From positions 868,001 to 932,000 of the forward strand of contig NZ_JACHGW010000002.1 in NCBI RefSeq assembly GCF_014202505.1: DNA of 64,000 bases. The letters are read 5' to 3'. Source of the DNA: Armatimonas rosea. GTDB taxonomy: Bacteria; Armatimonadota; Armatimonadia; Armatimonadales; Armatimonadaceae. Position numbers and translations under genes: made by a program. This document shows, piece by piece, positions 11,478 to 52,506 of the stretch; position 1 is the stretch's first letter; every line of letters begins with the position of its first letter. Below the pieces are notes generated by a model. The model was not told where the DNA came from. It did no database searches and was given only the letters and a program-made list of their open reading frames with translations.

Positions 11478-12074
11478 ATGGCAGTCGCGCTTCAACTACC
11501 GAGTACCGATACCCCTGACCTCCGGCAGACCTATACCGCAGAGGAGCTTTTTGCGTTTCCCAGCGACTGGCACTACGAGCTGATCCGGGGGAAGCTCAGG
11601 AGCTTGAACATGCCCGCTGGTGCCCTACACGGCAATCTCACTGCAATCTTCTCCGCACGCGTCCAGGTCTTTGTCGAGGACAATCAGCTTGGGAGGTGCT
11701 TCGCTGCCGAGACGGGGTTTCTGATCGCGCAGAACCCGGATACCGTGCTCGCCCCGGATTTTGCTTTTGTCTCCCACGCCCGGCTCCCCGACGAGCTTCC
11801 TGGTGGCTATGTCCGCGCCGTTCCTAATCTGGTGCTGGAGACCCGCTCGCCCAACGACCGGGCGCGGGAGGTTTCCGTCAAGGTGCGCGAGTGGCTAGAG
11901 GCAGGCGTGGAGGTCGTGCTGGAGCTGAATCCTGCCAAGCAAGTCCTCACCGTCTATCGCCCCAACACCGACCCCGAAATTCTCACCCGCGAGAGCATTT
12001 TTGACGGCGGCGAAATGCTACCCGGCTTCACGTTTCCTATCGCTCGGCTTTTTAAGAATATGACTGATGCCTGA
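11478..12074 (+). CDS. Uma2 family endonuclease-like protein
   Basis: A 198-residue PD-(D/E)XK-fold protein of the Uma2 (DUF820) family. Visible marks are HYELIRGKL near residue 33, LAPDFAFVS with the acidic residue, and LVLETRSPNDRAREVSVKV, which fits the E..SP....K pattern of the family. These genes are abundant in cyanobacteria and related soil phyla; their biological role is not established. AGGAG is 10 bases before the ATG. It overlaps the start of the next gene by 8 bases. Confidence 0.85.
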   Translation: MAVALQLPSTDTPDLRQTYTAEELFAFPSDWHYELIRGKLRSLNMPAGALHGNLTAIFSARVQVFVEDNQLGRCFAAETGFLIAQNPDTVLAPDFAFVSHARLPDELPGGYVRAVPNLVLETRSPNDRAREVSVKVREWLEAGVEVVLELNPAKQVLTVYRPNTDPEILTRESIFDGGEMLPGFTFPIARLFKNMTDA

Positions 12075-12615
12075 AAACGATGCACAGGAAATCGAATGGG
12101 GTAACCCAGACGACGAGTGGGAAATTGGCGAACTTCCCGATCACTGGACACTGGATGATGCCTTCTATGATAAGACACCAGAGAATCGCATTCGCAAAAA
12201 CTGTCTAGTTAGCCTCTTCTGTCTATCCACTTCATCAGTCCTTGGGATAGGAAATCTTCAGACCCAGTTGGATGTGAGCCGTATTTGGCTAGAGAGCCTG
12301 AAGACATTTACGGTACTCCTCAATCGCCTCCCGGAAGATATTGCCTTGATGCCTTTTGAGGGAGATTTTTGGCATACCGCCCATTGCTTACAAGGGCTAC
12401 AGCCCAACAGATCTCTGCCTTCTGTGTACGTCTTTTATATGCCTCACCAGTATAAATATGGTTGGCTAATAGATGGAGCAGGCAATGACTTTCGGCGATG
12501 TTGGTTCAATCCACGCACCCGAGAGTGGCACGATACTGAGCCAGAGTGGGGACCCGTTTCTAACGATTGGATCGAAGTTCTGGAACGCATAGAACCAACC
12601 ATGGAGAACTCCTAG
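12067..12615 (+). CDS. Hypothetical protein coupled to the Uma2 gene
   Basis: 182 residues, acidic N-terminus (PENDAQEIEWGNPDDEWEIG), no signal peptide and no domain that I recognise. A later segment, YVFYMPHQYKYGWLIDGAGN, looks like a folded beta-rich region. The DNA is less GC-rich than its neighbours (28 of 60 G+C in the row starting 12301), which may mean recent acquisition with the Uma2 gene. It overlaps the Uma2 gene by 8 bases, and its stop overlaps the stop of the convergent araC-type gene. Confidence 0.7.
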   Translation: MPENDAQEIEWGNPDDEWEIGELPDHWTLDDAFYDKTPENRIRKNCLVSLFCLSTSSVLGIGNLQTQLDVSRIWLESLKTFTVLLNRLPEDIALMPFEGDFWHTAHCLQGLQPNRSLPSVYVFYMPHQYKYGWLIDGAGNDFRRCWFNPRTREWHDTEPEWGPVSNDWIEVLERIEPTMENS

Positions 12616-13529: not shown

Positions 13530-13687
13530 GGAAGAGCGTGGACGGAGATCGTCCCGCTATGGAGCCTTCGGCCGCCTCCTCATGCCTCGTCGGTAAATTT
13601 CCGAGCGAAGCGAGGCGGCACGCACGTGCCCCATAGCCCGACGTTTACCGTCGAGGACTGCCGGATGCAATGGCGCGTAGGACAACG
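13530..13687. other. Divergent regulatory gap between araC-type gene and cluster
   Basis: 158 bases with a GCCTCG...CGAGGC inverted repeat (about 13579-13614) and a GACGTTTACCGTCG segment near 13638. No gene is seen. It is a likely site for the AraC-type regulator; no consensus could be defined from one copy. Confidence 0.35.
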
Positions 13688-14728
13688 ATGGAAAAAATAA
13701 GACTCGGTGTATTGAGTTTTGCGCATGGGCACATCCATGCCTACTGCAACAAGATCAAGACCTTCGACGATGCCGTCTTGGTGGCGTGCTGGGACGACAA
13801 CGAGGCGCGGGGGCGTGAGGCCGCAGAGCGCTACGGGATGGAGTTTGTCGAGAGCTACGAGGCGCTGGTCAATCGCACCGATATCGACGCCGTGATCATC
13901 ACCAGCGAGACCAACAAGCACGCGGACTTGACGGTTGCGGCGGCGGCGGCGGGCAAGCACATTCTCTGCCAGAAGCCTATGGCGACCACGCTGGCGGACT
14001 GCGACCGGATGATCGAGGCGGTCGAGAGGTCGGGCGTGCACTTTCAGATGGCCTTCCAGATGCGCTGCGACCCGCTGAACCAGCAGATCAAGAAGTGGCT
14101 CGATGAGGGCGCGGTGGGGCGTATCGGCTCCCTGCGGCGGCGGCACTGCATCAATTTTTTGTTCAATCCGACCATCGCCACCGGCCCGAGCGCCTGGCAC
14201 ATCGACCCGGTCGCCAATGTCGGGATGTTCTTCGACGATGCCGTCCACGCCGCCGACTTCCTCTACTGGCTGCTCGGAAAGCCTGTGAGTGTCATGGCCG
14301 AGATCGACAATATCCTCACCTCCGTCGCCCCCGACGACACCGGGATCGCGCTCTACCGCTGGGAGTCCGGGACGATGGGCGTGCTCTTCAATAGCTCCGT
14401 GACCCTGGCGAGCGAGAACACCTGCGAGATCTACGGCGATGAGGGCGTGATTATCCAGAACTACGACGATGGCGTCTCTGTGGGCCACGCGCCGGAGAAC
14501 GCGGTCGCGCTGAAGCTCTTCCGCAAGAGCACGGGCAAGTGGGAGACATTCGACTGCCCCCTGCCCCCCAACCACGGCGAGCGCCTCGCCGCGATCCCGC
14601 GCCCCTTTCTCGACAACCTCAAGGCAGGCAATCCCCCCAGCATCACAGTCCGCGATGGCAAAATCAGCGCCGAGATGTGCCTCGCCGCCTACGAAAGCGC
14701 CCGTGAGGGGCGGCGGGTGGCGCTATGA
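13688..14728 (+). CDS. Gfo/Idh/MocA-family oxidoreductase (cluster gene 1)
   Basis: A 346-residue NAD(P)-dependent dehydrogenase-like protein. MEKIRLGVLSFAHGHIHAY replaces the usual GxGxxG glycine-rich loop, QKPMATTLADCDRMI is the EKP-type motif (here QKP), and a C-terminal sandwich follows. I prefer ATG 13688 to ATG 13670 because the family N-terminus begins here and TAGGA is close upstream. The substrate is unknown; context suggests an oxidised sugar or inositol derivative. It is the first gene after the divergent AraC regulator. The unusual FAHGHIHAY loop could alter cofactor binding. Confidence 0.88.
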   Translation: MEKIRLGVLSFAHGHIHAYCNKIKTFDDAVLVACWDDNEARGREAAERYGMEFVESYEALVNRTDIDAVIITSETNKHADLTVAAAAAGKHILCQKPMATTLADCDRMIEAVERSGVHFQMAFQMRCDPLNQQIKKWLDEGAVGRIGSLRRRHCINFLFNPTIATGPSAWHIDPVANVGMFFDDAVHAADFLYWLLGKPVSVMAEIDNILTSVAPDDTGIALYRWESGTMGVLFNSSVTLASENTCEIYGDEGVIIQNYDDGVSVGHAPENAVALKLFRKSTGKWETFDCPLPPNHGERLAAIPRPFLDNLKAGNPPSITVRDGKISAEMCLAAYESAREGRRVAL

Positions 14729-14758: not shown

Positions 14759-14813
14759 CGGGGCCGGAAAGGCCCCGTCTAGGCCGCCTTCGGCGAAGCG
14801 GGCCGAGCCCGCG
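14759..14813 (+). repeat. Left 55-bp inverted repeat of the DUF4303 cassette
   Basis: Reverse complement of 15315-15369 at 51 of 55 positions. It also contains internal hairpins (CGGGGCC...GGCCCCG). Confidence 0.9.
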
Positions 14814-14843
14814 CAGAGAATGTCTGTTCGTAGGAGCCAAATA

Positions 14844-15302
14844 ATGTTGAATTGTGAAGTTCTGGTGGCTTTTATCGAGGAAAAAATCAACGCGTTTGCG
14901 GCTGCACACCCAGAGGAAACTTTTTGTGCATTTGCAATAGATGGCCAGCTTCTCTGCCTCAATACGGAATTTTTCTTTGAGGAAAAACTGCACTACTACA
15001 CTGAGACGGCATCTGATGAGTTTCGTCCTTTTTATGAAGCAGACGGCTTTCGTGAGCAACTTTGGAAAAATCCGGGTGACTGGAAGTACCAAGGCTTTGC
15101 TCATCTCACGGAAGAAGCAGGTCTCGATAAAGTTGCTTACTATGAGTACCTAGATATGTCACCTGAAGAACAACGAGCCAGTGAATACACTTTTGCGATG
15201 CAACAAGTTCTAGACGAATTGAATCAGCGAGGTGCCTTTAAGAATCTGAACTGCGCCCCCTCTTTTACGGCATTCCTCGTGAATCGAGCTGAGAATGAGT
15301 AA
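14844..15302 (+). CDS. DUF4303-like protein within an IR-bounded cassette
   Basis: 152 residues starting at ATG 14844, 7 bases after AGGAG. The layout resembles DUF4303 proteins: an early FCAFAIDGQLLCLNTE strand, YTETASDEFRPFYE, and FAHLTEEAGLDKVAYYEYL. DUF4303/SMI1-like families often occur near polymorphic toxins as immunity proteins; no toxin is seen here. G+C is near 45% in sampled rows, well below its neighbours. Together with the 55-bp inverted repeats on both sides this points to insertion into an existing operon. The family call is moderate confidence. Confidence 0.7.
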   Translation: MLNCEVLVAFIEEKINAFAAAHPEETFCAFAIDGQLLCLNTEFFFEEKLHYYTETASDEFRPFYEADGFREQLWKNPGDWKYQGFAHLTEEAGLDKVAYYEYLDMSPEEQRASEYTFAMQQVLDELNQRGAFKNLNCAPSFTAFLVNRAENE

Positions 15303-15314
15303 ACAATACCAATT

Positions 15315-15369
15315 CGCGGGCTCGGCCCGCTTCGCCGAAGGCGGCATAGGCGGGGACTTTCAGGCCCCG
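15315..15369 (-). repeat. Right 55-bp inverted repeat of the DUF4303 cassette
   Basis: Partner of 14759-14813 with four mismatches. No clear target-site duplication is seen outside the pair. Confidence 0.9.
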
Positions 15370-15386: not shown

Positions 15387-16766
15387 ATGAAAAAACATCC
15401 CAATATTGTCTTGCTTGCGGTGGACTCGCTGCGGGCCGACCACATGAGCTGCTACGGCTACCACCGAAACACGACCCCGCACCTGGATCGCTTCGCTTCC
15501 CAGGGAACACTGTTTGAGCACAATATCAGCGCCCATATCCCGACCACCAGCGCCTACGGCTCGATGCTGACGGGGCAGGATGTCTTCACGACGCAAGTGG
15601 TCGCGCTACGCCACAAAGGTCCGCTGCGTGAGGAAGTCCCGACCCTGGCCGAGCTGCTTAAAGAGGCGGGCTACACCACGACCTGTGTCGGGTTTAGCGG
15701 CAACCCGAGCGCCCGTGGCTTCGACAAGTACCTCAACTTCGCCGGTTGGGGAAGTTGGAACGAGGGCCGTAGCCCCAAGGCCGAGAACCTCAACCAGGTC
15801 GCTATCCCGGAGCTGGACGAGCTGGTAAAAGGCGACGCGCCGTTCTTTCTCTTCCTGCGCCACATGGACCCGCACGCGCCGTACCTGCCGCCCGCGCCCT
15901 ACGAGCGGATGTTCTACCACGGCAACGAGTCCGACCCGAACAACCGCTCGATGGACCCGGTGATGAGCTTCAAGCCCTTCTGCGACTTCTTCGCCAGCTG
16001 GATGCCGCCGGGAATCTCCGACAAGGACTACGTCATCGCGCAGTACGACGGCGCAATCGCCTACATGGACGCTTGCATCCAGACGATCTTCACGGCGCTG
16101 GAAGCCCACGGTATCTACGACGAGACCCTAATCATTCTCAACGGCGACCACGGCGAGACGCTCTACGACCACGAGTGCTGGTTCGATCACCACGGAATCT
16201 ACGACACGACCCTCCATGTGCCGCTGATCATCCGCTATCCGGGCAAGGTTCCGGCGGGCAAGCGGGTTGCGGGCTACACGCAGCACAAGGACCTGGTGCC
16301 CACCGTTCTGGAGCTGGCGGGGATCGAGACCGAGCGCAGCTTCGATGGCAACAGTGTCCTCCCGCTGATCTCCGGTGACGAAGTTTCCCACGAGAGCGAG
16401 ATCTACATCACAGAGTGCACCTGGATGCGCAAGCACGGCTGGCGCACCCCGGAGTGGAAGCTGATTGTCGCGCTGGAGCCGGACTTCCACTTCAAGCCGG
16501 AGATCGAGCTCTACAACCTGATCCAGGACCCCGACGAGAACAACAACCTGGCGGAGAGCGAGCCCGAGGTGGTGGCGCATCTCAAGGCGCGCATGGATGC
16601 CTGGATCGTCAAGCGCGAGGCGGAGACGGGCCTGACCAACCCGATCCACACCCAGGGCGACTGGCATGGGCATACGGGAGTCGGCCCGTTCACATCGAGC
16701 CAGCAAGCCTACGACACGATGCATATCGGCGATCCAGGGCAGGCGGCGAAGCTGCAGGGGAAATAA
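15387..16766 (+). CDS. Sulfatase-like hydrolase 1 (alkaline phosphatase superfamily, Thr nucleophile position)
   Basis: 459 residues. NIVLLAVDSLRADHMSCYGY supplies the first metal aspartates, and NGDHGETLYDHECWFDHHG the second metal set. The position normally holding the formylglycine Cys/Ser (C/S-x-P-S-R) reads T53-T-S-A-Y before GSMLTG, so it cannot be a classical formylglycine sulfatase. Thr-type members of this superfamily include phosphodiesterases and transferases. No signal peptide, so cytoplasmic. AAAGGA precedes the ATG. The substrate is unknown; it probably acts on the same compound as the neighbouring dehydrogenases. Confidence 0.88.
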   Translation: MKKHPNIVLLAVDSLRADHMSCYGYHRNTTPHLDRFASQGTLFEHNISAHIPTTSAYGSMLTGQDVFTTQVVALRHKGPLREEVPTLAELLKEAGYTTTCVGFSGNPSARGFDKYLNFAGWGSWNEGRSPKAENLNQVAIPELDELVKGDAPFFLFLRHMDPHAPYLPPAPYERMFYHGNESDPNNRSMDPVMSFKPFCDFFASWMPPGISDKDYVIAQYDGAIAYMDACIQTIFTALEAHGIYDETLIILNGDHGETLYDHECWFDHHGIYDTTLHVPLIIRYPGKVPAGKRVAGYTQHKDLVPTVLELAGIETERSFDGNSVLPLISGDEVSHESEIYITECTWMRKHGWRTPEWKLIVALEPDFHFKPEIELYNLIQDPDENNNLAESEPEVVAHLKARMDAWIVKREAETGLTNPIHTQGDWHGHTGVGPFTSSQQAYDTMHIGDPGQAAKLQGK

Positions 16767-16770
16767 GTCG

Positions 16771-16850
16771 GCCCCCTAACCCCCGCCCGGCGGGGGGACA
16801 ATAAGGAAAAATCCTCTTATCCCCCCCGCCGGGCGGGGGATGGGGGGTAG
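16771..16850. repeat. Intergenic palindromic repeat, family A copy 1
   Basis: CCCCCTAACCCCCGCC...GGCGGGGG followed by an ACAATAAGGA/TCCTCTTAT centre and the mirror-image G-rich arm. The arms are near-perfect reverse complements. Related copies lie at 19021, 21558, 32590 and 60171. Confidence 0.85.
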
Positions 16851-17875: not shown

Positions 17876-18030
17876 TCCTCCCCAACCCTCCCGGGTACCC
17901 TCTGGGTGCGGGCGCTCCTTCCGGGTGCCCTCTGGGCGTGGGAAAGGAGGGAGTTTCTGGGTGGATTTTCCCCTTTCCCAGTGAGGTACGAACGCCCGGG
18001 AGAGGGGGTAGGGGAGAGGTTGGAGACTGT
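17876..18030. repeat. Intergenic repeat, family C, between the duplicated dehydrogenases
   Basis: C-rich left arm and G-rich right arm (CTCTCC...GGAGAGG). Bases 17886-17909 are the exact reverse complement of 23066-23089 inside the 5' part of cysC. The right end supplies GGAG for the next gene. Confidence 0.75.
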
Positions 18031-52415: not shown

Positions 52416-52468
52416 GAGCGTCCCGGGGACGCGCAGAGCTTTGAGGCTTCTGCGTCCCCGGGACGCTC
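52416..52468. terminator. Bidirectional terminator hairpin
   Basis: Perfect 17-bp arms (52416-52432 and 52452-52468, GAGCGTCCCGGGGACGC and its complement) between convergent genes; GAAAAAGA precedes and CTTCC follows. A second hairpin, GCCGGGG...CCCCCGG, lies at 52480-52502. Confidence 0.75.
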
Positions 52469-52506
52469 CTTCCCTATATGCCGGGGACTTTTAGCCCCCG
52501 GACAGG

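Follow-up and report, generated by a model that had tools for sequence, protein, structure and literature searches.

A foreign-looking gene within a dispersed palindromic doublet in Armatimonas rosea, a probable one-gene cassette

The window analysed here is a 64-kb stretch of the 6.33-Mb genome of Armatimonas rosea (G000, contig C2:868001-932000), and positions given without a contig refer to it. Among the genomes compared, the sister G001 was the only one from the same genus. An inverted-repeat search of the window found two 55-nt arms, at 14759-14813 and 15315-15369, that match in reverse complement at 51 of their 55 positions (93%) and lie 501 nt apart. Two scans, with spacings from 200 or 250 bp up to 2500 bp, revealed no other inverted pair in the 64 kb. 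The unit delimited by the arms (14759-15369, 611 bp) is intergenic, encloses a single open reading frame and separates a GFO/IDH/MocA oxidoreductase gene from a sulfatase gene. Three points proposed in a first-pass annotation are thereby borne out: the inverted 55-bp arms, a lone gene of about 45% G+C in a richer region, and an insert that splits a dehydrogenase from a sulfatase. The locus is composed as follows.

13670-14728, plus strand: upstream neighbour, GFO/IDH/MocA oxidoreductase; a 95% identical orthologue lies beside the sister's empty doublet
14759-14813, plus strand: left arm, a half-doublet of a palindrome family, inner hairpin of type A (74.6 bits with the arm model)
14814-14831, plus strand: left loop remnant, GCAGAGAA.., similar by eye to the loops of other doublets
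14832-14836, plus strand: AGGAG, the likely ribosome-binding site of the cargo gene, judged from its sequence
14844-15302, plus strand: cargo gene, 152 aa, DUF4303-like, 44% G+C, GC3 0.42
15303-15314, plus strand: right loop remnant, ACAATACCAATT
15315-15369, minus strand: right arm (81.8 bits with the arm model); its first 50 nt or so match the corresponding arm of the gene-free doublet found here in the sister
15387-16766, plus strand: downstream neighbour, sulfatase; 97% identical orthologue in the sister
16772-16847, no strand: empty copy of another palindrome family, CCCCCTAACCCCCGCC.., which encloses a DUF559 gene elsewhere in the genome

The cargo gene has a G+C content of 44.4% and a GC3 of 0.42, against 60-63% and 0.80-0.86 in three neighbouring genes. 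One of 40 relatives (G017, from the same order) encodes a homologue that is 42% identical, and the cargo thus represents a real protein family. Judged by its sequence, then, this is a genuine but foreign-looking gene. No comparable arms surround the homologue in G017, so the arms are not a trait of the gene family. A search of genome contigs with the cargo protein returned one distant relative only, and a plasmid search only 30%-identical Vibrio proteins.

The earlier DUF4303-like label holds in part. The match to DUF4303 (PF14136) spans nearly the whole profile (positions 2-136 of 155, E = 6.5e-4), but its 19.9 bits fall below the Pfam gathering cut-off of 23 bits. The further suggestion that the cargo serves in defence or immunity found no support: the protein has no PADLOC match at E <= 0.1 and no PHROGs or NCBIfam match, and no paper on DUF4303 was found in the literature searched. 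Such a role is neither supported nor excluded. Nothing significant was found among PDB sequences, and an AlphaFold model built without an alignment was unusable (pLDDT 46). The gene has no evident promoter of its own, and with its ATG only about 30 nt from the arm it is most likely expressed by read-through from the operon.

A DNA search found the window's arm at dozens of other places in the genome, many of them close inverted pairs, and the pairing in the window is therefore not due to chance. A covariance model of the arm (E<=0.01) gave 86 matches in G000, 7 in G001 and 17 in G006, with few or none in other genomes of the family. The model also matches the minus strand weakly at 52451-52500 in the window (27.7 bits). 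In an alignment of 34 arms, the architecture is conserved: the outer of three hairpins has a TGAAAG-type loop, the middle one varies, and the inner one is of GCGGGCCGAGCCCGC type. Pairing was analysed for 48 of the G000 matches, chosen by hand and including nearly all the strong ones. These comprise 20 inward-facing pairs and 8 single arms. Eighteen of the 20 pairs have loops of 10-22 nt and one pair overlaps; the window's pair, at 501 nt, is the only one with a long loop. Each of the three doublets that were folded as single strands gave a single extended hairpin (z -6.6 to -9.2). We interpret the arm family, from these sequence patterns, as dispersed palindromic doublets, REPIN-like or TIR dimers, of the kind linked to RAYT/TIRYT (Y1, HUH) transposases. 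The GT[AG]G tetranucleotide is absent from the arm consensus, CGGGGCCTGAAAGTCCCCG.., in which the GGGGWSAS motif was also not seen by eye. For this reason we call the unit REPIN-like and TIRtron-like and do not assign it to the GTAG REP superfamily.

The dehydrogenase/sulfatase junction is present in the sister on contig C60 (about 92% identity), where it holds a complete doublet and no gene. A comparison with a site lacking the insert, as the first-pass annotation had advised, is thus available. The insertion points coincide with those in the window, and a TATGCC segment in the right arm is common to both loci but absent from every other arm aligned. The sister's right arm is apparently orthologous to that of the window, and the doublet was probably already resident before the gene. 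In the sister, the loop, ACCGAATCTGTCTCTGT, resembles those of other doublets (L013, L025), so it does not have the look of a scar left by gene loss. The inner left arm differs, the window being of type A/A and the sister's doublet B/A. A second G001 contig with the same junction, C83, carries a different palindrome of the CCCCCTAACCCCCGCC.. type (C60 and C83 correspond to L062 and L048), which may reflect either strain variation in the assembly or a second copy. Given this third state, the ancestral condition of the junction is not certain. Taken together, the empty doublet, its loop and the contrast of arm types (A/A versus B/A) favour a scenario in which a doublet already in place acquired the gene. 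With the right arms apparently orthologous, the alternative of a 611-bp unit transposing into an empty site fits less well.

The same comparison bears on the idea that the two arms are unrelated intergenic repeats that flank a lone gene by chance. Such repeats are common, eight single arms occur in this very family, and native genes between complete doublets exist, so that neighbouring repeats alone prove nothing. Yet both arms of the window unit are half-doublets with their inner ends toward the gene and with loop-like remnants, and a single complete doublet occupies precisely this position in the sister. Chance flanking, already disfavoured, is hardly credible here: the arm repeat is indeed a common intergenic one, but at this locus the two arms are halves of a single doublet. 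The weight lies on the geometry of the half-doublets and on the empty site in the sister.

A form of the element that bears a transposase occurs in the sister. At C68:74833-74889 and 75412-75467, arms of the same family enclose 522 nt with a Y1 (IS200-like, HUH) transposase gene; this gene is broken by a frameshift, and both parts match Y1_Tnp (8.7e-10 and 1.4e-6). In G000 the unit is missing from the orthologous site, where about 40 bp of other intergenic sequence are found. Among the sequences examined, no intact transposase gene with exactly the window's arms was found in G000, and the sister's is the broken one. G000 itself has seven Y1_Tnp genes (L050-L056), all seven within an inverted pair, with arms of 26-105 nt and gaps of 488 to 583 nt. 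Only the gene at C1:1548188 has arms that the window's arm model clearly, if weakly, detects. The arms of the seven genes look mutually different, and several palindrome families with their own transposases may coexist in G000. The transposases carry a Y-x-x-x-Q signature, as read by eye. A Y..Q signature characterizes IS200 transposases and also class 3, which is intermediate between IS and REPtrons, and some Y1 classes lack GT[AG]G (PMC6006769). TIRtrons consist of RAYT-like genes between long inverted repeats, some copies of which occur elsewhere as dimers (PMC3733652).

The inner-hairpin types are mixed in 16 of the 18 short-loop doublets of G000, and both gene-bearing units, that of the window and the sister's transposase unit, are A/A. 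We consider it likely that the window unit is a palindromic doublet of RAYT/TIRYT type, a REPIN-like TIR dimer, that holds a single foreign gene in its loop and thus constitutes a one-gene cassette. The cargo gene would occupy the place where the Y1 (HUH) transposase sits in the parent element, between the same arms. It would have been gained on the G000 lineage, most likely when the resident doublet recombined, with the arms as homology, with an arm-gene-arm unit that came in, perhaps of type A/A, or else by insertion into the loop. A Y1 transposase that acts on the hairpin ends may mobilize arm-gene-arm units in single-stranded form, and the gene, once in place, would be read from the operon promoter. 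The first-pass annotation had suggested that the unit is a MITE or non-autonomous cassette that carries a passenger gene. That largely holds, in that the arms are the ends of a dispersed, transposase-linked palindrome whose transposase-bearing form exists in the sister; insertion of the whole 611-bp unit into an empty site is the part that fits less well.

As the doublet was probably resident, however, the gene may simply have landed there. A foreign gene could have been inserted by illegitimate recombination into the loop, the palindrome being a fragile or permissive site that never moved the gene. The doublet is apparently resident in the sister, the gene-bearing unit of the window exists in one copy only and no duplication of a target site could be established, both of which count against a cassette, and other low-GC genes in the genome, such as that at 12067-12615, have no arms. 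Against an accident of this sort, the left inner arm of the window is unlike that of the sister's doublet and agrees with the A/A type of the transposase unit, which a simple landing would not predict, and two further palindrome families have a gene in the loop. We therefore regard it as unlikely.

These further families came from a scan for inverted pairs that covered 2.37 Mb of G000. A DUF559 gene (E = 1.3e-30; nuclease) lies in the loop of another dispersed palindrome at C2:614516-615006 (L106:14516-15006), and a 260-aa lower-GC gene of no known family lies in a palindrome loop at C2:1134509-1135407 (L131:4509-5407). The palindrome of the latter recurs at dozens of sites, and the empty forms of both, for which few examples were matched, have loops of 12-28 nt. 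Since two other families thus hold lone lower-GC genes, the gene-in-loop pattern recurs. At the site of the 260-aa gene, the sister has a different gene beside arms of another palindrome type (L186:5316-5914), with an N-terminal stretch that appears by eye to be related. The sister has the DUF559 unit at the matching site too, but there its orientation with respect to the flanks is reversed (L186:1835-2245).

This last observation raises the alternative that the inverted arms act as a switch that flips the gene relative to the operon promoter, and that the unit is phase-variable rather than, or besides, mobile. The window's arms, 93% alike and 501 nt apart, would be compatible with inversion. 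The DUF559 flip, however, is a difference between species, in another element, and not one within a population, and recombination between arms would flip a gene passively in any case. A switch is accordingly very improbable, and we retain the one-gene cassette as the preferred reading.

A possible fourth case is ambiguous. A gene for a 125-aa membrane protein (C3:369450-369827) is associated with a complete doublet, partial arms and direct repeats, and its two flanks match different contigs in the sister. Half-doublets of the palindrome family of the C1:1548188 transposase adjoin this gene (C3:369202-369854; L174:9202-9854), and the right inner arm (TGCATTGAG) is directly repeated on either side of it. 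The pair at C2:42445-43152 was not accepted as a case of cargo, since a native tandem paralogue lies there between two doublets that are both complete, and those at C2:126435 and C2:1122010 were set aside as long inverted stretches that putatively resemble coding paralogues. Looking across the non-transposase pairs with arms of dispersed families, 4 of 11 enclose DNA of at most 53% G+C, compared with 5.3% of 500-bp windows. The corresponding binomial P of about 0.002 is only indicative, as the low-GC threshold and the classification of pairs were chosen after the data had been seen.

Transposable-element ends that surround a passenger gene in place of the transposase are known as mobile insertion cassettes (MICs), and have been described for DDE-type IS ends. 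The term itself is found in PMC3129680. The window unit likewise has transposable-element ends around a gene that is not a transposase. Unlike MICs, its ends are Y1-linked hairpins, and its mobility is putative. To judge by this architecture, the unit is a candidate MIC-like cassette with a REPIN/TIRtron as its framework. A second point of comparison is offered by the minimal mobile elements of Neisseria: there, one intergenic slot has contents that differ among strains and species and are exchanged without dedicated mobility genes. The window site resembles them as one intergenic slot with different contents in different species, but the Neisseria elements exchange through flanking genes, whereas the window's cargo is bounded by palindromic arms. 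These elements are named in PMC1538595.

The parallels with Y1-linked elements are closer. As in TIRtrons and TIRYTs (PMC3733652), there are long inverted arms, arm copies dispersed as dimers and, in the sister, a Y1 transposase between the same arms; the unit at C68:74833-75467 has the defining arrangement of such a transposase between long inverted repeats of one family, its gene being frameshifted. The window unit differs in that a DUF4303-like gene takes the place of the transposase and in that GGGGWSAS was not seen, a motif present in the repeats of many, not all, TIRtrons (PMC3733652). With REPINs (PMC3116915, PMC8049555) the family shares two inverted palindromic repeats, a short diverse spacer, dispersal, a single hairpin and a link to Y1 transposases. 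The arm family has the REPIN doublet form, the spacer of the window copy being 501 nt; unlike REPINs, the arms are 55 nt long, there is no GT[AG]G guide and the window's long spacer contains a gene. Class 3 TnpA-Y1 elements (PMC6006769) are alike in the atypical secondary structures that flank many copies. The transposases here also resemble them in the Y-x-x-x-Q signature, any membership of class 3 being putative. A passenger gene is not mentioned in the class 3 paper (PMC6006769), and the word 'passenger' is absent from those REP, REPIN and Y1 papers that were searched for it. No paper combining REP-associated tyrosine transposases with passengers was found, although the literature searched was incomplete and this is weak evidence of novelty.

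To our knowledge, REPIN/RAYT elements have been described as cargo-free, with domesticated transposases that spread no genes. The gene in the loop, the empty doublet in the sister and the two similar cases suggest that common intergenic palindromes can carry or accept genes, and that supposedly cargo-free palindromic elements can act as one-gene cassettes. If true, single foreign genes would have a simple way into operons, between hairpins. More tentatively, we should consider the possibility, which we hold to be rather doubtful, that in Armatimonadaceae the Y1-transposase palindromes of several families are general one-gene cassettes, with loop-borne foreign genes that are swapped by way of the arms at fixed intergenic positions and at times inverted. 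This would amount to integrase-free gene capture with hairpin ends.

Several smaller observations concern other palindromes and low-GC DNA. At C1:62053-62378 (L192:2053-2378), perfect 37-nt inverted arms surround 252 bp of 41% G+C with no evident gene, perhaps a decayed cargo. In the window, a single arm of CCCTCTCCC type, the type that encloses the 260-aa gene elsewhere in the genome, lies at 17967-18022. The lower-GC gene at 12067-12615 (48%, GC3 0.49, 182 aa) is located between a Uma2-type gene and an AraC regulator; no arms were found around it, and its product has no family match. In the sister, a palindromic sequence beside the AraC gene stands in place of this gene.
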